DNA of 36,066 nucleotides from a virus: IMG/VR virus record IMGVR_UViG_3300001533_002684, positions 1 through 36,066 of that record. One strand, given 5' to 3'. Both the position numbers and the translations under genes were made by a program. Shown one piece after another: positions 5,534 through 36,000 of this stretch (within the stretch, counting starts at the first letter, position 1; the number at the start of each line of letters is the position of its first letter). Under the pieces are notes generated by a model. That model searched no databases. It was not told the DNA's origin and worked only from the letters and a program-made list of their open reading frames with translations.

Positions 5534-7012
5534 CTACATGTAGGTTTTTGAGCTGCTCAGAACTGCAAGAGTCTGGCTGTTTACATTATCAAAGTTGTAG
5601 TTCCTGTCAATGATAACGTTCTTTGCAACACCAAAGCCTCGGCCCTGATCCTGCAATGCCATACCATATCTCTCACGGATCTTTACCCACTGGATTTCAC
5701 GATCCATATCTTTCCATTCTTCCATAACGGGATTCTCTTTCTGGAGAATAAGACCGCCTTTGGTTGAATCAGCGAAGATAATATTGGATGCGTACTTGCC
5801 GTTTGCATCATGAATATCATTATCTGCTCCGGTTACAGAGTTTACCTGATAATACGGAACAAGAGGAGATACCACTATCTTCAGTGGTCGATCCACATGC
5901 TTGGGCTGAGTAAAGTAGGTTGCACCGAACGGAGTAAGATTAGGATATGCATAAGGTGCAATACCCAGCTTACCGAATATAGTGTCCGGTGTATTAAAGT
6001 CTGACAACGCAGTTGGTGAGCTGGCACCGGATGTAGTGGAACCAAACTTACCATATGGCTGTCCAAGCGCACCGAAAGGACTGTCGCCCCACCCTGGTGC
6101 GGCATTACCCTGTGGTGTATATGTTACGCCACCACCGATGATAACTTCACGGATCTCGGTGTCCCGAATCCATGTTGCCCATGCAAAGGGATGCATAACC
6201 AGTGTATCAACATTGTATCCACGCATCTGCATCCATGCCAGCATTTTCATGATGTCATCGATAGTCATGGTTCCGTTCTGTTTACCGTCGATTGCACGGC
6301 CAGTTGCAGAACCAAGCTGAGAATTGTCAGGATCTGCGTTGTCCATAAGGACCCAGCCTGCCAGTTCATTCAGCATTTCAATCGCGTTACGCTCTTTCTT
6401 ATTCATAAGCGCAAGTGCGAGATTTGCCACGGTGTATCCAAAGATACCCCAGTTATCTGTCTCCAGAAGTTCCCTGGTTGCCGGTATCTTAGCACCGAAC
6501 TTCCTGATCTCCAAGTTTACCCTGAATGCCTGGTCGCTTACGGCTGAACCAGTTTCAGGAAAAGGGGATCCTTCTGGTACTTCTTCTACTTCTATACCAC
6601 CAAGGGTACGAAGCGTAACACTTTCTCCGTTTCCGGAATACGGAATGGTCTGGAAAAGATTCTGAGTAACCACACGAGCCGGCTGAATAGCCTGCATCAT
6701 GAGGATTTCTGTAGCTGCGTAGAACAGCTTCGGATAATCCTTGGTACTCATAAGGTCTTTTACGGTGATAGATTCACCGGCCAGTTTCCCTGTTCGAAAC
6801 GCATCCAGTATTTCAGAAATATCTTCAGCGTCCTGTCTGATGGACTGCATAGCGAAGGTCTCGTCTATATTGCCTTCATCGTCAACAGGACTTGCTCCGC
6901 CGTTGCTTACGGCTATTTCGGCAGCTTCCCTTGCTTTCTCTTCTATCGAATTCCTTACGTCATAAGAATGAAGAGAGAAAAGAGAACTTGCCATTGGACT
7001 GAACTTACCCAT
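5534..7012 (-). CDS. Major capsid protein (HK97 fold)
   Basis: The 492-residue protein has the look of an HK97-fold capsid subunit. A helical N-terminal arm (about 1-75) comes first, then VVTQNLFQTIPYSGNGESVT and EVEEVPEGSPFPE near residues 113-148 (E-loop and start of the P-domain), IRKFGAKIPATRELLETDNW and a long helix LALALMNKKERNAIEMLN. A hydrophobic A-domain section DTLVMHPFAWATWIRD follows, and the end again forms P-domain strands. Its ribosome site is the best in the block (AGGAGGT, 7 bases before ATG) and it has its own terminator, both fitting very high expression. It lies downstream of protease and portal, as expected. Confidence 0.85.
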   Translation of the reverse strand: MGKFSPMASSLFSLHSYDVRNSIEEKAREAAEIAVSNGGASPVDDEGNIDETFAMQSIRQDAEDISEILDAFRTGKLAGESITVKDLMSTKDYPKLFYAATEILMMQAIQPARVVTQNLFQTIPYSGNGESVTLRTLGGIEVEEVPEGSPFPETGSAVSDQAFRVNLEIRKFGAKIPATRELLETDNWGIFGYTVANLALALMNKKERNAIEMLNELAGWVLMDNADPDNSQLGSATGRAIDGKQNGTMTIDDIMKMLAWMQMRGYNVDTLVMHPFAWATWIRDTEIREVIIGGGVTYTPQGNAAPGWGDSPFGALGQPYGKFGSTTSGASSPTALSDFNTPDTIFGKLGIAPYAYPNLTPFGATYFTQPKHVDRPLKIVVSPLVPYYQVNSVTGADNDIHDANGKYASNIIFADSTKGGLILQKENPVMEEWKDMDREIQWVKIRERYGMALQDQGRGFGVAKNVIIDRNYNFDNVNSQTLAVLSSSKTYM

Positions 7013-10602: not shown

Positions 10603-12254
10603 CAGTCTTTCCTCGAACCGGGCCCGGACTTTGTTCCGTGCTGATTCCTGGGTTGATTCTGCGACTTTACCTTATTGTTTACCGCAGACTCATCCCCCGC
10701 GCCGCCACCTTTTGACTTGGCAAGAGGGATTGACACCATGTTCACAAAGAGTTCCTTCTCATCTGCTTTTGACATGGGTCTGCGCTTAATGTCTTTTCTT
10801 GCTTCGCTTAATGTAATGAGATTACCTTCCCACTGGTTGATACTGGTATTAATCTTGGATATCATCTTCTCCAGGCTCATCTCATTGAACTGTAAACTAA
10901 TAATAGGATCGCCCCATTTATCAAACATCTGTTCAGATGTCATTCCTTTTGATGAGATAATGTCTGGTAATATATTGTAATTATACACGGAGGTTACTAT
11001 ACTGGATATATAGGTACACCGGTCAGCCAATGCATCGTCCAGTGATTCACTGGTTGATCGGTTCGCGGTATCCCCTTCCCCCACACTTACTCCTGAGGTA
11101 CCTGATCCAACATGTACCCTGTTTTTAAAATGTTCAATGTACGGCATGATGTTATCAATACCTGTCTGCAGATTAATCGAATCTATATCTACACGGTGGT
11201 GTGTCGTCACCATTCCGTTCGGTGCCATCTGCTGTATGTTATCGTGAACCCTGGTGACCTCCGCATCGTTTGCCGGTCGGTCATCTGAACCAACCTTTAT
11301 ATGTAACAGCGGAGATCCATACTGAAATGCCAGTAACTCCACCGTTTCTTCAAGTGATCTGAGTGTCAGAATATCATCAATAACCTGAAAGCATGGAGGC
11401 TCAGGAAAAATGTCATCACCTGCGTCCGTTATAAATCCTATGACAAGATCACGAGCCGGTATTCCTGGAATACCTTTCGCAATAGTCTTCTTATTATGCT
11501 GCGCAGCAAGGGTACGCTCAAGCATTTCCCGTACCCCTATAATTTCATTTGCTTCGTTTACAAAGAAATACAAGTTTCCTGGATTAAGGAATCGTATACT
11601 TCGTATGTGGTTGGTTACTGTGTTAGCTCCATCATACGGGTTATCTCCTGTCCACCTGATCTTTTGTCCGACAAACAAACCGTATTTTAAAATATCAGTT
11701 ACCATGCGGGATACATGTTGATTCATGTATTTACCACTGGTCATCTGCATGAATGCCAGTTCTTTCTTTACGTATGAGCTCAACACGTTTTCTTCTGAGA
11801 CAATATTAAACCCGTTACGCATCATGGTTTCAACCTGACGCATAATGGAACGGGAGAAGTAGGATTCCTTTGAGAAATAGGAATCTATTCGAGAGTAATC
11901 ATATGGTGATTTTACCATCTGATATTGCTTGTATCGTATTCTGGTAGGCACTTCCTTCCTTGCAGTAACATACTGGTACAGAGTACTCTTATCTTTTCTC
12001 TTCTCAAGGAATTTGCCGATGTGTGCACCTCCTGCCTGAGTTGCTGATCGTCCACTGGTTGCAACACTTCTTCTGTTCCTTCGCCGAAACATGCCACCCT
12101 TGCTTACTGCAACAGGGAAACCGACGGGTTCCTGTAATTCCTTCGCATATTCTTTCTTGAACTTGTCAATCTCCGCACGAGTACGTCGTTCAATTACCTT
12201 ACTATCAGTACGGAATCTATCAAAGAACTGGTGTAGGTGTTCAGATATTTTCAT
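10602..12254 (-). CDS. Portal protein
   Basis: The 550-residue product lies next in the terminase-to-capsid gene order and has portal features. A basic N-terminus is followed by helical segments, the wing (SIMRQVETMMRNGFNIVSEE near 137-156), strands with FLNPGNLYFFVNEANEIIGV, and EPPCFQVIDDILTLRSLEE leading into the long helix-rich core near residue 280. The clip and stem region follows (MPYIEHFKNRVHVGSG). Its C-terminal tail is disordered and basic and ends KSGPGSRKD, a motif echoed by KSGPGSKNSKD in the protein encoded at 9757-10212. GAGG overlapping the upstream stop supports the start. The portal ring is the DNA channel and terminase docking site. Confidence 0.75.
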   Translation of the reverse strand: MKISEHLHQFFDRFRTDSKVIERRTRAEIDKFKKEYAKELQEPVGFPVAVSKGGMFRRRNRRSVATSGRSATQAGGAHIGKFLEKRKDKSTLYQYVTARKEVPTRIRYKQYQMVKSPYDYSRIDSYFSKESYFSRSIMRQVETMMRNGFNIVSEENVLSSYVKKELAFMQMTSGKYMNQHVSRMVTDILKYGLFVGQKIRWTGDNPYDGANTVTNHIRSIRFLNPGNLYFFVNEANEIIGVREMLERTLAAQHNKKTIAKGIPGIPARDLVIGFITDAGDDIFPEPPCFQVIDDILTLRSLEETVELLAFQYGSPLLHIKVGSDDRPANDAEVTRVHDNIQQMAPNGMVTTHHRVDIDSINLQTGIDNIMPYIEHFKNRVHVGSGTSGVSVGEGDTANRSTSESLDDALADRCTYISSIVTSVYNYNILPDIISSKGMTSEQMFDKWGDPIISLQFNEMSLEKMISKINTSINQWEGNLITLSEARKDIKRRPMSKADEKELFVNMVSIPLAKSKGGGAGDESAVNNKVKSQNQPRNQHGTKSGPGSRKD

Positions 12255-30352: not shown

Positions 30353-30444
30353 ATGATATACCTCCTCGTGTAATACGTGTACCAGTTCCAGAAGTACTGC
30401 CGAGTTTGTCAATAAATTAACCTATAGGAGATCAAAAACTGTCT

Positions 30445-30538
30445 CCGGTATAAAAGGGGTACCGGGATATCTGGGTTAGGAGTCGGGCATATGATTCGAC
30501 CCCCCGGGTACATTACCAAATCTAAAGGGGGTACTCAA
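30445..30538 (+). promoter_or_regulatory. Structured 5' leader with sequestered ribosome site
   Basis: CCGGTA (30445-30450) pairs with TACCGG (30460-30465). ACCCCC just after 30500 can pair with the ribosome site GGGGGT (near 30527-30532). GTACTC (30531-30536) pairs with GAGTAC (30541-30546), which puts the first bases of the start codon in the loop. These stems would compete and could switch translation. The promoter itself is not clear; TATAAA occurs near 30449. Confidence 0.5.
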
Positions 30539-30871
30539 ATGAGTACACTTAATAGTCGTTCAAACATTCAAAACGCTGGCATAATTGCCGGCCACGTTGT
30601 AGTAGAAAGCCTGAAGGGCACCAATCAGTTGGTGCTTCAGTCAGGTAAAGTCGTTAAGGTTACGGCTGTAACCTTAACAACTACGGCGTCGAGTATTGCG
30701 AATGAAGTATATTCGCAAAACAAGAGAATTTGGGTAGAGGGAGAGATCTTAGCCGATCTCTCATTCGGCTTAAAGAAAATCTTTAATGGCTTTAGCGCCA
30801 TTAAAGAAACATCTAAGTCCATTGCTGAGGCAATGGACAAAAAGGCTAGAGAGATAGAAAAGAAGCAGTAA
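30539..30871 (+). CDS. Small protein encoded by a chain of stem-loops
   Basis: AGGGGGT six bases before ATG 30539 supports this start over 30491. The 110-residue protein is amphipathic and Thr, Ser and Val rich in its first half (VVKVTAVTLTTTASSIANEV), with charged helices at the end. No family is recognised. The mRNA is the striking part: stems at 30575-30592 (7 bp), 30611-30640 (12 bp, 2-base bulge), 30653-30678 (11 bp perfect), 30696-30718 (8), 30741-30762 (8), 30781-30806 (10), 30817-30838 (9) and 30850-30881 (10) tile nearly the whole gene. Selection on RNA shape may dominate over protein sequence here. Confidence 0.6.
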   Translation: MSTLNSRSNIQNAGIIAGHVVVESLKGTNQLVLQSGKVVKVTAVTLTTTASSIANEVYSQNKRIWVEGEILADLSFGLKKIFNGFSAIKETSKSIAEAMDKKAREIEKKQ

Positions 30872-31256
30872 TTCTATCTCTATAGATAAGAGGAAGGGTA
30901 TATCCCTTCCTCTATCTATATAGACTTATATATATCTTATTATATATATAGGTCTATATAGATATATATCTATTTTGATAGATATATAGTTGGTATACCG
31001 GATTGTTATAACAGTACTGTTATGGCTGGTATACCAACGTAATATTCTATCCCGATCCGGAAGGACCGGGATTCAAGGAGGAGGAGTAGAGAGGAGGAGA
31101 CCGACGGACAGGGTCTCCTCTTCTCGTAGTAGCATGCGGCACTTGGAGGGAGGCCTCGGAGAAATCCGGGGCCTTCGTGTGTTCGAGTCACACTGTCGCG
31201 AATGGGCTGACCGGTTGCCTACCGGTCAAATATATGCCCAAGGAGGGGTGTGTTCT
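30872..31256 (+). ncRNA. Hyper-structured RNA between the two genes
   Basis: 385 bases without a gene are almost fully paired: 30881-30920 (17 bp, one bulge), 30917-30960 (19 bp, one G-U), 30963-30988 (10 bp), 30989-31038 (11-bp arms GTTGGTATACC enclosing the 16-base palindrome ATAACAGTACTGTTAT), 31049-31072 (GGAA loop), 31094-31120 (9 bp), 31151-31174 (10 bp, GAAA loop), 31204-31239 (nested GGGC and 8-bp stem), and 31248-31269 around the next start codon. GNRA-type loops indicate folded RNA rather than DNA cruciforms. None resembles a known riboswitch that I recognise. Confidence 0.6.
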
Positions 31257-31269
31257 ATGAAGAATACAC
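31248..31269 (+). promoter_or_regulatory. Start-codon hairpin of the polymerase-like gene
   Basis: A 9-bp stem (31248-31256 with 31261-31269, one G-U pair) closes a four-base loop AUGA that is the start codon plus one base. The ribosome site GGAGGGG lies at its 5' foot. Confidence 0.6.
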
Positions 31270-33755
31270 TGTTGTATTACGAACCCTGGCTGGATGCCAG
31301 GTGTTCGAAGGACTTCTCCCTCAGTGAGGGGGAAGTTGAGAGGGGTCAGCAGGCGCTCGCTGCTGCTCCCTCTGCTCCTTCCCGGGAAGTCGTAATGTAC
31401 GACTTGGACGGGAAGAAGACCCGTACGGAGGGTATCTACGGGGCGTATGCCACCGTGGAGTCCGTATGGATAGAGGCCAATGTCCCTCAACCAAGGGACA
31501 TGGCCGAGTGGAAGTCCATACTGGGTGCGGCCCTCAAGCGCATCAGGGTATGGCTTTCAGATGACTGGCGACTGTCCCCGGTGAATGCCGGGAGGCACAA
31601 GCTGGTCAGCGAGTATGGTGAGATGAAGGCACGGGTGACCTTCATCTTCACCCGGGGTCTGTTTGACCCCGCCAGAGAAGACGCCATGGCCGGCAGATAT
31701 GGCGGTCTTCTCGGGAAGCTCACTGCTGACTCACGTGAGATCAGCAGGGGAGCTTTGGTAGGTGGAGTCGATGACGACTCCAATGTCTACCGGGAGTGGG
31801 ACTCCTTCTATTTTATTAGAAGGAGTGCCCATACGCCCGTGGATAATCCTATCATCCCGTTGTACGGGGTGAAAGATATTCACGGCCTGGCCAGAAAGAT
31901 GGGAGAAGGCCAGCCCCAGCCTGTGGTATGGGGACTGGCCCTCTCGATTCCGGACAAGTACTGGCACCGTTGTATCGAGGGTGCCGGGCTTGATCCGGTA
32001 TTTCACAGGGACGCCGTGGTCCTGGCATGCAACCGGAAGCATGTCAAGTTCCTCGGCGCAGAACGCCAGGAAGGCCTGACATTTTGGAGGGTACGGCCAA
32101 CCCTTCAGGGTCGACGGGCACGAGTGACCTCAGAGGAACGGCAGTTTGATGCCCTTACCTCTGAGGGAATTCGGTGGCTAGCCGACCGGCGTCGTGAGAA
32201 CGCCGGAGTTATCCGGGATGCCTATGTGGCATTCGCCGAGGGTAACCGGCAGTCACTGGTGGACCTAGTGGCATCCGTCATGGAGGAAGCGGTAAAAGCC
32301 GATCCAGACGAGATGTCAGAGGAAGAGAGGGAAGAGCTGGAAGTCCTCTTCGCCTCTGTCTCGAGGAGCAGGGTGGCCATATGGGCCGGCCTGCCCCTCC
32401 CTGGGAGTGAAGTGGTTGACCTGCTCAAGCCACTTCTTACCCGCCGTATCAAGGGTATAGGAACCCGGGGGATGACGATGTTCTCTGCCCCCTCCAACGT
32501 GGTTGGGGAATGGGGAACTGGGATTAATAAGGCGGAGATGCTCCGCCTTAACCTGCAGGTAGGTGACTTTGTCACCGATATCAGATACCCGAACACCGGT
32601 ACGGGTATGATAAACCTACAGGTCACGAAGACCCATCATCTGGATGCGGTCTTCGGTCACCCGGTAACCGGGGCGACCTATCAGGCTGAGGACTATGACA
32701 CTGATGTGAGTGTCGTAGTGGTATCCCCGGTCCGCCTGGTGGATAATGCCAGGCTGGTAGCACCGGTTGCCAAGAATACTGATTCAGGGATGGTCACCCT
32801 GGCATCGGTATTCATGACGGCTTCCTTCGGGAAGCTGAATATTGGCATCACCGACCATTACCTGTCCCGTATAATCGGGACCGGACGGACACAGTTCCGT
32901 ACACTGGTCGGCAATCGGCTGCAGGCCCTGATCGACATGGCCAAGAAGAATGTCGATCCGGGAGAGGATATTGGCGAGATACTCAAGCGGGAACAGGTAC
33001 CCGCCGAGCCGAGATCCCTGCGCCTGCAGAAGGGGAGACTGGCAGAGCCGGTCTCCATGACCTACCTTCCACTGCTCCTTGACAGTTGGAAGGAGGAAAC
33101 CCCGGTAAGTGCCCTCTACCGGGATGCCCTGGCACTGCTGCCGGGCGTGGCTAGCAAGCGGAACTCTACGTATGTGAACCGCTGCAAGAAGGCCGCCTCT
33201 CATGCCGCTGTTGAGGATAATATCCTCGAACGGTATGAGACAGCATGCCGAAATATGGGTATGCCTGTCTATACCCATGCAAACCAGCGACAGTTCTATG
33301 AGTATCGTGACTTCGATGAATCGTGGTCACGTACCATGGATGAGACAATCGCTGAAAAACTGGCCAAGACCAGTAAGGATACCTGTATCCGTGCCTACTG
33401 GATAGCCGGCCAGTACTTCCGCTACCTTGACTTGCTCAAGGAGCGGGATACCGACACAGCCTATGAGGTACTGGGTAACCTCAAGAAGAAGCTGTCGGCT
33501 CACCCCGACCAGGCAGGGAAGGCTATGACCTACCTGTTCTGGATGCTGGCGGGACGGCATGGCCGTGCCACCCAGGCGGTGGTGGAACGACAGCGCAAGG
33601 CGGTCGGTGGCAGTACCAGGCTTACCAGGCTCAAGTCGGCCGGTATCCTGGCAACCCTGCCCCCTATCCTTGGCAGATACAATGTCAAGAAATTGGTGGA
33701 ACAGGCAGGGTATGCGCATGACTACGCCGTAGTAGTGCGCAGCAAACGGCAGTAG
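31257..33755 (+). CDS. Putative divergent single-subunit double-psi barrel RNA polymerase
   Basis: ATG 31257 follows GGAGGGG; the frame extends to 30990 across structured RNA, which I do not count. The 832-residue protein has at residues 443-483 R-Y-P-N...GM, then FGHPVTGATYQ and AEDYDTDVSVVVVSP, with Asp479, Asp481, Asp483. This resembles the beta-prime catalytic segment (R.P...HPL...NADFDGD...V.VPL) and the QDE-1/YonO family loop D-x-D-G-D. MTASFGKLNIGITDHYLSRI after it recalls the family's post-loop helix, and KHVKFLG...RVRPTLQ (261-283) could be the first barrel. Thr replaces the usual Gly in the loop. GC is higher than in the structural genes. Whether it copies DNA or RNA is unknown, and activity is unproven. 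Confidence 0.5.
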   Translation: MKNTLLYYEPWLDARCSKDFSLSEGEVERGQQALAAAPSAPSREVVMYDLDGKKTRTEGIYGAYATVESVWIEANVPQPRDMAEWKSILGAALKRIRVWLSDDWRLSPVNAGRHKLVSEYGEMKARVTFIFTRGLFDPAREDAMAGRYGGLLGKLTADSREISRGALVGGVDDDSNVYREWDSFYFIRRSAHTPVDNPIIPLYGVKDIHGLARKMGEGQPQPVVWGLALSIPDKYWHRCIEGAGLDPVFHRDAVVLACNRKHVKFLGAERQEGLTFWRVRPTLQGRRARVTSEERQFDALTSEGIRWLADRRRENAGVIRDAYVAFAEGNRQSLVDLVASVMEEAVKADPDEMSEEEREELEVLFASVSRSRVAIWAGLPLPGSEVVDLLKPLLTRRIKGIGTRGMTMFSAPSNVVGEWGTGINKAEMLRLNLQVGDFVTDIRYPNTGTGMINLQVTKTHHLDAVFGHPVTGATYQAEDYDTDVSVVVVSPVRLVDNARLVAPVAKNTDSGMVTLASVFMTASFGKLNIGITDHYLSRIIGTGRTQFRTLVGNRLQALIDMAKKNVDPGEDIGEILKREQVPAEPRSLRLQKGRLAEPVSMTYLPLLLDSWKEETPVSALYRDALALLPGVASKRNSTYVNRCKKAASHAAVEDNILERYETACRNMGMPVYTHANQRQFYEYRDFDESWSRTMDETIAEKLAKTSKDTCIRAYWIAGQYFRYLDLLKERDTDTAYEVLGNLKKKLSAHPDQAGKAMTYLFWMLAGRHGRATQAVVERQRKAVGGSTRLTRLKSAGILATLPPILGRYNVKKLVEQAGYAHDYAVVVRSKRQ

Positions 33756-33765
33756 TACTACTGCC
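33748..33765 (+). repeat. 18-base perfect palindrome over the polymerase stop codon
   Basis: GGCAGTAGT followed by its exact complement ACTACTGCC. The stop codon TAG (33753-33755) lies inside the left arm. As RNA it would be a hairpin at the gene end. Confidence 0.85.
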
Positions 33766-33809
33766 CGCCTGAGTTGGACAACCCGGGGGTTCGATTCCCC
33801 CGTCAGGCG
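33766..33809 (+). ncRNA. tRNA-like T-arm plus acceptor helix
   Basis: A stem GGGGG / CCCCC (33785-33789, 33797-33801) closes the seven-base loop TTCGATT, an exact T-loop. Extended by C33784-G33802, it stacks directly on a 7-bp helix CGCCTGA (33766-33772) with TCAGGCG (33803-33809). There is no D-arm, anticodon arm or CCA, and only 11 bases join the two 5' parts. It looks like a minimal tRNA-like structure rather than a whole tRNA gene. It begins 10 bases after the polymerase stop. Confidence 0.6.
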
Positions 33810-34101
33810 AATCTCAGGTAATCTTCACTGATTACTGATTGGGGGCGTTGGGTTGTTCCCAGGATCTGTAGATACACCTTACGTGACGAAGGATGAGGTT
33901 GTACTCCCTCTCAGGGTATATCTCTTTATACACGGAGGGGTAGTCCTCTTACTGCGGAATGTTCTTTAAGGATGGAGTGACCGAACCGGTCGCTCCCTCT
34001 GTGAGAAAGGTAACCCTGGGTACGGGTCACAGAGTATGGTGAGCCCAGGGGTAGAGGGCTGGTCCACCGGCTGGCCAGTCCTCTACACGTGAGTGCCGGA
34101 C

Positions 34102-34131
34102 TAGAGGGGGGACGCCCCTCTCTTTTCTTTA
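34102..34131 (+). terminator. Terminator-like hairpin with pyrimidine tail
   Basis: AGAGGGG pairs with CCCCTCT around a 5-base loop, followed by CTTTTCTTTA. The same element recurs at 34383-34412. It could stop transcription or be an RNA processing site. Confidence 0.55.
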
Positions 34132-34133
34132 TG

Positions 34134-34193
34134 GCCCCTCTCTTTTCTTTATGAAGGAGTGGTACGCCCACTCTGAAATTGAAATAGAGGAGG
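34134..34193 (+). repeat. 60-base leader repeat, copy 1
   Basis: Identical to 34395-34454. It carries the TTCTTTA element, a 6-bp hairpin GAGTGG/CCACTC and the ribosome site GAGGAGG of the following gene. Its first 20 bases (34134-34153) are a tandem copy of 34114-34133. Confidence 0.95.
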
Positions 34194-34199
34194 AACGTG

Positions 34200-34370
34200 A
34201 TGAAAGAAATGAAGGAAGAAGAGATATGGGAACCGTGGATGGAGGGGGAGTTGGAGTTTAGATGTGTGGAGCCGCCGGAGCCGCCCTCTTCAGTGAAAAA
34301 CTGTATTAGAAGAGTGAGGAGAAGATTCAGGAGGAGTCAAAAGAAGGCAGAAGACTCCCGGAATGGATAG
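34200..34370 (+). CDS. Small charged protein
   Basis: A 56-codon gene with GAGGAGG six bases before ATG, supplied by the repeated leader. The N-terminal half is acidic (MKEMKEEEIWEPWMEGELEF) and the C-terminal half very basic (KNCIRRVRRRFRRSQKK), so the protein is strongly two-faced. It may bind RNA or DNA through the basic part. It is not similar to the other small proteins nearby. The strong ribosome site and leader support it as real. Confidence 0.55.
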   Translation: MKEMKEEEIWEPWMEGELEFRCVEPPEPPSSVKNCIRRVRRRFRRSQKKAEDSRNG

Positions 34371-34382
34371 ACCGCAGGACGG

Positions 34383-34412
34383 TAGAGGGGGGACGCCCCT
34401 CTCTTTTCTTTA
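34383..34412 (+). terminator. Terminator-like hairpin with pyrimidine tail
   Basis: A second copy of the element at 34102: AGAGGGG/CCCCTCT and CTTTTCTTTA, 13 bases after the stop codon of the preceding small gene. Confidence 0.55.
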
Positions 34413-34454
34413 TGAAGGAGTGGTACGCCCACTCTGAAATTGAAATAGAGGAGG
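34395..34454 (+). repeat. 60-base leader repeat, copy 2
   Basis: Identical to 34134-34193; it supplies the ribosome site for the gene at 34463, so a 5' leader has been duplicated in front of two unrelated genes. Confidence 0.95.
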
Positions 34455-34462
34455 TTCTCATT

Positions 34463-34711
34463 ATGAGAATTGTTGTGAGTCTGGACGCACTCAAGTCCGT
34501 CGTTGAAGGGCTTGAAGACCTTGGTGTATGTACCAGGGAAGACGTGAAAGTCGGGTTGGCAGATGCCAACGTGGATGTTTTTGTCGGTAAGTACGGTGCT
34601 AAGATGATTAGCATCGATACCGGCTCTTCGAAAGCGGATATTGATGAATTGTTTGATGAGGATCCCGAAGAACAGGAAGTACCGTCTGATCCCTTCGAGG
34701 ATCAGGCGTAA
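34463..34711 (+). CDS. Small acidic protein, unknown function
   Basis: An 82-residue protein: an alpha/beta first part (MRIVVSLDALKSVVEGLEDL, VDVFVGKYGAKMISIDTG) and a strongly acidic tail (DELFDEDPEEQEVPSDPFED). GAGGAGG eight bases before ATG 34463 fixes the start. The start codon is at the tip of a hairpin (TTCTCA 34455-34460 with TGAGAA 34464-34469). More stems lie in the gene, for example GTTGGCA/TGCCAAC, TGCTAA/TTAGCA and TGATCC/GGATCA. No family is recognised. Confidence 0.6.
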   Translation: MRIVVSLDALKSVVEGLEDLGVCTREDVKVGLADANVDVFVGKYGAKMISIDTGSSKADIDELFDEDPEEQEVPSDPFEDQA

Positions 34712-34984
34712 GCCGTCACAGGGACGTGTCTGCCGCTCGCACGGGGCAGTACACGACCCATCCTTTTCTTTATTAATGGAGTGGCACCGTGGTGAAGGGT
34801 AAGTCCGCTCGTACCCCCAGGGGTCTCTCTTCTTTACTGACGGTATGGGAAGACGGGACAGCTGATAAGGCTGCCGTCCCCGGGTGTGCGCGTAAGGGCT
34901 CAAGGCCGGCGCTATCCCCATCGGTACCCCGGGGAGACCGGTCCGGTTCTCCCCTTTCTTTATAAAGAGTAAGGAGGTACAGGT
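34712..34984 (+). other. Structured region with three TTCTTTA elements
   Basis: No gene is supported in 273 bases. Two terminator-like hairpins are seen: CGTGTCTGCC with GGCAGTACACG (about 34724-34756) before the element at 34766-34772, and GGGGAGA with TCTCCCC (about 34931-34954) before the one at 34956-34962. A third element is at 34830-34836. A 57-codon frame from GTG 34792 lacks a well-placed ribosome site. Confidence 0.5.
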
Positions 34985-35167
34985 ATGTTGACCAGGAAAC
35001 ATTTATTGGAGGGCTTGTTGATCTACGCCGACCGGCAGATCGATATGCTCAAAGAGACTATCAGGAAGAGAGGCCTGGTTCACAGGTCCACTCACCTGAA
35101 GGATGAATTGATCCTGTGGGAATCCCACAGGGACGAATTGAAAGATGAGTACAGGAGGTTAGCATGA
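34985..35167 (+). CDS. Small helical charged protein
   Basis: A 60-residue, almost fully helical protein (LLEGLLIYADRQIDMLKETI, LKDELILWESHRDELKDEYR), possibly a coiled coil. AAGGAGGT seven bases before ATG fixes the start and the stop overlaps the next start by 4 bases (ATGA). A strong hairpin CCTGTGGGA/TCCCACAGG lies in the gene. Function unknown. Confidence 0.6.
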   Translation: MLTRKHLLEGLLIYADRQIDMLKETIRKRGLVHRSTHLKDELILWESHRDELKDEYRRLA

Positions 35168-35331
35168 AATTGAACAAAGTTCGGTCGTTTGAACAAATAG
35201 TCAAGTCAGCCGGCAGTTGTGCTGGGAAGGCGATAGGCTATGGTGCCCTGTTTTGTATTGAGGCATATAAGAGTATGAACCAGGTCGCCCACATAGAGAA
35301 GCAGAGTCAAGAGAAGGAGAGGAGAGACTAG
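35164..35331 (+). CDS. Small protein coupled to the preceding gene
   Basis: A 55-codon gene that begins with ATGA overlapping the previous stop. AGGAGG lies a few bases upstream, inside the previous gene. The product has a basic start (MKLNKVRSFEQIVKS), a small hydrophobic middle (CAGKAIGYGALFCIEAYKSM), and a charged end. The middle is too short and polar to call a membrane helix with certainty. Function unknown; coupling suggests a partner of the 60-residue protein. Confidence 0.55.
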   Translation: MKLNKVRSFEQIVKSAGSCAGKAIGYGALFCIEAYKSMNQVAHIEKQSQEKERRD

Positions 35332-35445
35332 TCCTCTCCCTCTTTTGCCGGCCAGGCCGTGGGCTAAGCCCCGGGTAAGCCTGGACGGAACCCCCCTATT
35401 GCGTCGTTAGAATCAGACAAAGTCTGTCTAACATCGCTCTAACTA

Positions 35446-35500
35446 GGATAAGTTAGGATAGGATAAGTTAGGATAAGTTAGGATAAGTTAGGATAGGATA
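35446..35500 (+). repeat. GGATAAGTTA / GGATA tandem array
   Basis: Four copies of the 10-mer GGATAAGTTA (35446, 35461, 35471, 35481) are mixed with 5-base GGATA units (35456, 35491, 35496). Units are adjacent with no spacers, so it is not a CRISPR array. It could be iterons of an origin, a binding array, or slippage product. Confidence 0.9.
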
Positions 35501-35620
35501 GGAGGGGTAGATCTAACTAGGAGAGGTAGATCCCTTCTAAGTAGCACAGGCATTATGAGATGGGTAGTCAGTAGACTAGCCATGGATAGTAGCTTCTTCT
35601 CCCTATATATATAGAATAAC

Positions 35621-35650
35621 TTGACTAAGTAGAATGTTATACCCTATATT
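35621..35650 (+). promoter_or_regulatory. Candidate promoter
   Basis: TTGACT (35621-35626) and TATATT (35645-35650) are 18 bases apart, upstream of the last small genes. Confidence 0.35.
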
Positions 35651-35784
35651 ATTAGGGGAACACCGGATTTTGGTGGGATATATAGAGGACGGAAGAGACG
35701 AGATGAAGAGAAGGAAAAACTGTTGTAGTAGAAGCATTGTTGTACCCCGGCGAGTGTGGAGTACACGAGAAGAACGCCGATTAT

Positions 35785-35958
35785 ATGGTAGTAGAGATGA
35801 CGAAGATATATAGAGAAGAGGAGTACCGGATGTTCGTAGACCGATGGAATATGATGAAAGAGGACGGAGGATTCCGGTTTACCGACGTGCACGCCTACCT
35901 CGTAGAGTACGAAAATCATGAGATTACCGACTGGTCTATATACCAGGAGGTATGCTGA
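35785..35958 (+). CDS. Small protein, start uncertain
   Basis: An in-frame TTG at 35737 would give 73 residues and ATG 35785 gives 57; neither has a good ribosome site, so the first ATG is used. The protein is acidic and aromatic rich (YREEEYRMFVDRWNMMKEDG, DVHAYLVEYENHEITDWSIY). No family is recognised. It is followed by a TTCTTTA element and then the next small gene. The call as a gene rests on frame and context. Confidence 0.45.
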   Translation: MVVEMTKIYREEEYRMFVDRWNMMKEDGGFRFTDVHAYLVEYENHEITDWSIYQEVC

Positions 35959-35968
35959 TCCCTCTCTT

Positions 35969-35975
35969 TTCTTTA
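35969..35975 (+). repeat. Last TTCTTTA element
   Basis: The element occurs at 33962, 34125, 34145, 34406, 34766, 34830, 34956 and 35969, always between genes and often after a GC-rich hairpin and before a GGAGTGG-like stretch or a ribosome site. Confidence 0.7.
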
Positions 35976-36000
35976 CTGTAGATTACAACAGGAGGAAAAG

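Follow-up and report, generated by a model that had tools for sequence, protein, structure and literature searches.

The sequence analysed here is IMGVR_UViG_3300001533_002684, positions 1-36,066, and this whole stretch of 36,066 nt is referred to as the window. It carries the terminase, portal and capsid genes of a tailed phage. Near 30.4-31 kb the G+C content shifts from 0.41 to 0.57 together with the texture of the sequence, and a block of plus-strand genes and gaps begins (Table 1). Kin of this phage were retrieved from IMG/VR by terminase alignment, and two of them are long, G004 (101.9 kb) and G005 (150.5 kb). Alignment of the three leaders places the TTCGA-CCCCC element at the block start in both of these phages as well. 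The 110-aa gene gave no significant match in family searches.

The tail of the block contains repeated small units. An exact duplication of 60 nt (34134-34193 = 34395-34454) comprises a terminator-like tail, CTCTTTTCTTTATGAAGGAG and a ribosome site, each copy preceding a small ORF. The pyrimidine motif is found in six copies within 34112-35979. Small genes of G005 are preceded by comparable units of a terminator and CTTTTCCATA...ATG. Tandem repeats of the AGGATAAGTT type lie at 35438-35510, where the structured block ends. Sigma-70-like promoters were not enriched.

Table 1. Coordinates of the block and its parts in the window.
Feature	Position (strand)	Description	Basis
Core hyper-structured block	30445..33830 (+)	Leader, 110-aa gene, gap, 832-aa polymerase-like gene and tRNA-like elements	
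Leader	30445..30538 (+)	Hairpin CCGGTATAAAAGGGGTACCGG and TTCGA-CCCCC element	Sequence, fold, three-leader alignment
110-aa gene	30539..30871 (+)	Unknown function; a hairpin loop holds the start codon	
Structured gap	30872..31134 (+)	AU-rich hairpin of 21-22 bp (30913-30964), plus several more with 9-14 bp	
W1	31135..31201 (+)	tRNA-like element	
832-aa protein gene	31257..33755 (+)	Candidate single-chain double-psi-beta-barrel RNA polymerase	Motif
W2	33766..33810 (+)	tRNA-like element, beginning 11 nt past the stop of the polymerase-like gene	
Tail of block	33831..35440 (+)	Moderate structure; small genes accompanied by terminator-like hairpins and CTCTTTTCTTTATG motifs	
82-aa gene	34463..34711 (+)	Structure persists at the synonymous level	z -4.7
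60-aa and 55-aa genes	34985..35331 (+)	Weak end of the block	60-aa gene, synonymous z -1.9

Strength and extent of the folding

Both strands were folded in 120-nt segments and compared with dinucleotide-preserving shuffles. Between 30440 and 34400 the mean z is -3.98 on the plus strand and -3.53 on the minus strand, with 82% and 76% of the segments below -2, whereas the rest of the window (structural genes, plus-strand genes and small minus-strand genes) has mean values of +0.14 to -0.88. The sense strand of the core (30445-33830) averages -3.83 over 28 segments and the tail (33.8-35.4 kb) -1.68 over 13. A first-pass annotation, made from the sequence alone, had described all of 30445-35432 as hyper-structured. 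This holds very strongly from 30445 to about 34.2 kb, but the structure between 33.8 and 35.4 kb is only moderate and fades past about 34.8 kb.

Perfect Watson-Crick stems of at least 8 bp with short loops can be counted independently of energy parameters. The core contains 22 of them, against 0.4 in shuffles, and 9 fall in the 832-codon gene (0.6 expected). Five lie in the 333-base gene of the 110-aa protein, where none is expected and where the annotation had claimed the same number. Control regions show at most a modest excess over their shuffles (5 vs 2.6; 3 vs 1.4). When 30445-35440 is folded locally, 68% of the bases are paired, and stems that had been named beforehand are recovered, with loops at 31322, 31394, 31810, 32537, 33043 and 33218.

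Codons were also shuffled synonymously within genes, which leaves the protein and the codon usage unchanged. The 832-codon gene then gives a sense z of about -14 (-14.6), and its structure is therefore not a by-product of protein or codon usage. The 110-aa gene gives z -3.7 to -6.4, and of the controls, a 1185-aa gene has -0.3 and the terminase gene 0.1. Structure thus spans genes and gaps alike, as had been proposed, with an excess at synonymous sites in the coding parts and z -17 for 30440-31260 (821 nt) folded in one piece. Dinucleotide- and codon-preserving shuffles were the comparisons that the annotation had suggested, and both turned out in its favour. It had also stated that the texture is missing from the structural genes. 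By dinucleotide shuffling this is correct, but the major capsid gene (5534-7012, minus) shows a modest excess in the synonymous shuffle (z -4.6), so that synonymous-level structure elsewhere is not strictly zero.

The likeness that the annotation drew to single-stranded RNA phage genomes can be put in numbers. With identical method and segment size, MS2 has a mean z of -2.6 (-8.9 kcal per 120 nt) and the block -3.8 (-13.2), and the synonymous-shuffle excess per 100 nt is -9.1 kcal in the MS2 replicase gene and -10.4 kcal in the 832-codon gene. Like the genomes of MS2 and other Leviviricetes, the block has dense local stems in coding and non-coding parts; they persist at synonymous sites and are at least as strong. 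Unlike them, it is not a free RNA genome but one operon only of a dsDNA tailed phage, and none of its proteins is recognised as a replicase, coat or maturation protein of an RNA virus.

Start codons usually avoid structure. Those at 30539, 31257 and 34463 of the window and at 11458, 12034 and 7308 (minus) of L103, a locus of G005, lie in a hairpin directly after the Shine-Dalgarno sequence. In this placement the average of the block genes is not clearly different from controls.

Related phages and the strand under selection

Folding scans covered 100 kb of G004 and the whole of G005, and each contains one clearly structured region, at 6-16 kb in G004 and at about 44-52 kb in G005; in each, the signal peaks on the sense strand of the resident genes. 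All three phages carry the block about 14-17 kb upstream of the terminase gene, and it runs opposite to that gene. These three are the only block-bearing phages known. Nothing comparable in structure was seen in Moorella phage MTATph1 (150 kb scanned) or in the yonO part of SPbeta. The one region per kin phage and its absence from these other phages are in agreement with the earlier statement that such density is unusual for a DNA phage. A distant relative, G007, has a weak plus-strand elevation at about 217-226 kb (L168-L169), in a similar position relative to the terminase and with a 661-aa gene of unknown function inside. It was rejected as a member, since the elevation is weak and a polymerase homolog is not recognisable.

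The gene content of the relatives' blocks corresponds in part to that of the window. The 832-aa protein has a homolog in G004, to which it aligns over 817 aa with 35% identity (E 4e-134). The structured region of G005 holds an 814-aa gene, L103:9014-11458 (minus), with the DFVxxxRYPNTxxG stretch of the 832-aa protein. This gene came to light by synteny and by its place in the structured block rather than in a sequence search; a profile comparison of its product with the 832-aa family was not significant. Its homology is likely but not shown, and depends on that motif only. In the same protein DCDDH replaces D-x-D-x-D, so that catalysis may be lost or changed. A 104-aa gene in the structured region of G005 is homologous to the 110-aa gene that adjoins the polymerase-like gene of G004 (39% identity). 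RNase HI genes lie within both relatives' blocks, at L093:499-891 (minus) and L103:5409-5846 (minus); none was seen in the window, which may stop short of the gene. Together with a Macro-domain protein and a SLOG-family protein, these neighbours fit an accessory or counter-defence region.

By Wilcoxon test, folding is stronger on the sense than on the antisense strand in two parts of the G004 block (p 0.0017 and 0.009) and in that of G005 (p 0.0008), and the synonymous shuffle of the G004 polymerase-like gene gives z -9.4 for sense vs -3.4 for antisense. In the window block the two strands are nearly equal, the sense strand being slightly stronger (p = 0.06, not significant), and G.U and A.C mismatches within the stems are too few to settle the strand. 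The attribution of the structure to plus-sense RNA in the first-pass annotation is thus supported significantly by the relatives only, while the window itself folds on both strands. If the cause lay in the DNA alone, no sense bias would be predicted. Since the relatives show such a bias, the selected molecule is most likely RNA rather than DNA.

tRNA-like elements and the 832-aa protein

A strict descriptor was used for the tRNA-like elements: a T-arm with a TTCRANN loop, a gap of 0-1 base to a 7-bp acceptor stem, and GG in the linker. It matches twice in the window block and four times in the G004 block (0.02 and 0.06 in shuffles), and not at all in about 250 kb outside the blocks of the same phages. 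W1 and W2 bracket the 832-codon gene, and the four elements of G004 are each intergenic and in sense orientation. The acceptor stem of W1 has 6-7 bp, followed by UUGGAGG in the linker, a 12-bp arm and a T-arm with the loop UUCGAGU; a D-stem and an anticodon loop are absent. W2 has a 7-bp acceptor stem, UUGGA in the linker and a 6-bp T-arm with a UUCGAUU loop. The linker GG, which the descriptor requires, is present in every element as in the D-loop of tRNA, without a D-stem or an anticodon arm. Among the copies the acceptor and T-stem sequences vary with pairing preserved. No CCA is encoded in the elements, and most of the tRNA body is missing from them. ARAGORN called no tRNA or tmRNA at them, and Rfam gave only sub-threshold matches; the weak ones of W2, below gathering scores, include mascRNA and the tmRNA 3' end. 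Two imperfect elements in the G005 block both fail the strict descriptor, and four of the five descriptor matches in G007 are shaped like ordinary tRNA genes. Two paralogous genes of about 70 aa stand in tandem at L094:15301-15852 (minus), and a separate tRNA-like element follows each of them. A 17-nt complementarity between the leader and W2 was considered as the closure of an RNA genome and dropped, since by a rough estimate about one such pair is expected by chance.

Known systems resemble these elements in part. As with mascRNA, menRNA and mitochondrial tRNA punctuation, tRNA-like folds adjoin message ends, and W2 is weakly mascRNA-like by Rfam; the block elements, however, are smaller (44-67 nt), have no cloverleaf, stand in a phage operon and have not been shown to be cut. 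With the tRNA-like domain of tmRNA they share the acceptor stem, the T-arm and a D-loop-like GG without a D-stem, and the long arm of W1 replaces the anticodon arm, but a tag reading frame, an ARAGORN call and an encoded CCA are lacking. Mauriceville-type retroplasmids and plant viruses with 3' tRNA-like structures likewise have such a structure directly after a polymerase gene. There the block differs in its DNA phage genome context and in its candidate polymerase, in which the searches made detect neither a reverse transcriptase nor a palm RdRp.

The 832-aa protein carries RYP at residues 443-445 and DYDTD at 479-483 (RYP-36-DYDTD), and its G004 homolog RHP...DFDGD. An R-x-P about 36 residues ahead of D-x-D-x-D is the signature and spacing of the double-psi barrel in the beta-prime subunit of cellular RNA polymerase, and YonO has the same signature with a longer spacing. 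Among 1359 ORFs from all fetched loci, eight match the R.P...D.D.D pattern, namely five YonO-family proteins, the window and G004 proteins and a 2160-aa ORF from G007. The pattern has no match among reversed proteins. A further G004 protein of 2280 aa (L100:1292-8131, plus) has a DFDGD motif and no Pfam match, and by this motif may possibly be a second, giant RNA polymerase.

Searches with the 832-aa protein in Pfam, NCBIfam, PHROGs and PDB gave no match, and no palm-type RNA replicase was recognised. Profile-profile comparison with YonO by hhalign, from merely 1-2 query sequences, gave probabilities below 1%, and AlphaFold2 models with the same depth of input reached a pLDDT of 31-32. Scanning genome contigs and viral contigs with the protein yielded no member beyond that of G004. 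The assignment of a polymerase fold therefore rests on motif and spacing. Nevertheless, YonO itself shares just a few residues with cellular enzymes (PMC5467207), and thus motif-level evidence is all that can be expected. Like YonO of SPbeta (PMC5467207), the protein has about 830 aa and an R-x-P followed by D-x-D-x-D at RNAP-like spacing. Unlike YonO, it has no detectable sequence similarity beyond the motif, its gene is structured where yonO-type genes are not, and the candidate G005 member has DCDDH. We regard it as probable that the 832-aa protein is a YonO-type double-psi-barrel RNA polymerase, although RNA synthesis by it has not been shown. Five YonO-family polymerase genes used as controls give synonymous-shuffle z values of +0.9 to -2.3, so the block structure is not general to polymerase genes.

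A proposed folded accessory transcript and its alternatives

The observations establish that synonymous sites carry excess structure, that the structure, its place in the genome and, in the relatives, its sense bias are conserved, and that intergenic tRNA-like elements are present. They can be accommodated if large tailed DNA phages of this family have the block as an accessory operon, and if its sense transcript is strongly selected for folding in coding and non-coding parts. The tRNA-like element of MALAT1 is processed by RNase P on the 5' side and RNase Z on the 3' side. By inference, host enzymes could cleave the polycistronic RNA at its tRNA-like elements in the same manner. The products would be compact messages with bodies resistant to single-strand-specific nucleases and to RNA-guided or RNA-sensing defences, and might last through infection. 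One product, judged by its motif, would be a single-chain polymerase of the YonO kind, whose likely task is the transcription of other phage genes. This hyper-structured operon transcript, cut into persistent messages, is our best explanation but a tentative one that does not reach the level of the probable. Its function is inferred, and there are no expression, probing or processing data; cutting by RNase P and RNase Z is an inference too.

The change in G+C and texture near 30.4-31 kb could be taken for an assembly chimera, with RNA-virus sequence fused to a DNA-phage contig. Yet a homologous polymerase-like gene and a correspondingly placed structured block occur in a second contig, which is independent and shares the phage backbone, and no RNA-virus protein family is matched; the syntenic blocks of the relatives exclude a chimera in practice. 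The near-perfect stems of the window and the almost equal folding of its strands would suit quasi-palindromes made by template switching, or cruciforms serving replication or packaging. We consider such a cause in the DNA highly improbable, for both relatives show a significant sense bias, the structure is confined to co-oriented genes and pervades coding sequence at synonymous sites, and the tRNA-like folds are restricted to the sense strand. Only slightly less improbable is that a primitive single-chain polymerase transcribes the operon and is prone to leaving RNA-DNA hybrids (R-loops), which strong co-transcriptional folding and RNase HI then clear. The RNase HI genes in both relatives' blocks speak for it, and YonO lacks most domains of multi-subunit polymerases, including those that separate RNA from the template (PMC5467207). 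However, yonO-type genes lack such structure, and there is no evidence that the polymerase transcribes its own block.

The transcript could also be an RNA replicon, captured or domesticated, which is copied by its own double-psi-barrel polymerase with the tRNA-like elements as 3' tags. tRNA-like 3' tags are known from plant RNA viruses and the Mauriceville retroplasmid, and the eukaryotic QDE-1/RDR enzymes are double-psi-barrel relatives acting on RNA. Folding at or above the MS2 level on both strands, tRNA-like elements flanking the polymerase-like gene in the window and in G004, a family motif common to RNA-dependent relatives, and RNase HI within both relatives' blocks would be in agreement with it. 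Against this, the structure of G004 and G005 covers 6-10 kb and many small genes with terminator-like hairpins of their own, not a single unit, and their antisense strands are less structured. Conserved genome ends were not found, apart from the 17-nt complementarity attainable by chance, and YonO itself is DNA-dependent (PMC5467207). An RNA replicon phase is accordingly doubtful; if true, prokaryotes would have an RNA replicon that relies on the cellular RNA-polymerase fold instead of the palm fold. Somewhat less remote, but still unlikely, is that the fold serves evasion only. It would conceal the transcripts from Cas13, type III CRISPR and RNA-sensing nucleases, the tRNA-like elements being incidental remnants. 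Small accessory genes are structured, including those of the relatives' Macro and SLOG proteins, and the region resembles early or counter-defence genes. Nevertheless, the tRNA-like elements are sense-oriented, intergenic and absent elsewhere in these phages, and evasion alone gives no explanation why this operon alone needs hiding.

To our knowledge, the combination of an ordered RNA structure, mascRNA/tmRNA-like elements and a YonO-like protein has no parallel, though its parts do. In a limited literature search, no account turned up of a dsDNA phage operon with coding RNA folded as strongly as an ssRNA phage genome, and a survey of 650 dsDNA viruses concerns reduced structure near start codons (PMC3072339). 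Our preferred reading, a folded accessory transcript cut at its tRNA-like elements, suggests that these DNA viruses depend on specially shaped RNA. Should the fold and its punctuation by tRNA-like elements have a function, DNA phages would possess an RNA-level strategy, for processing, persistence, evasion or even copying, of a kind hitherto ascribed to RNA viruses.
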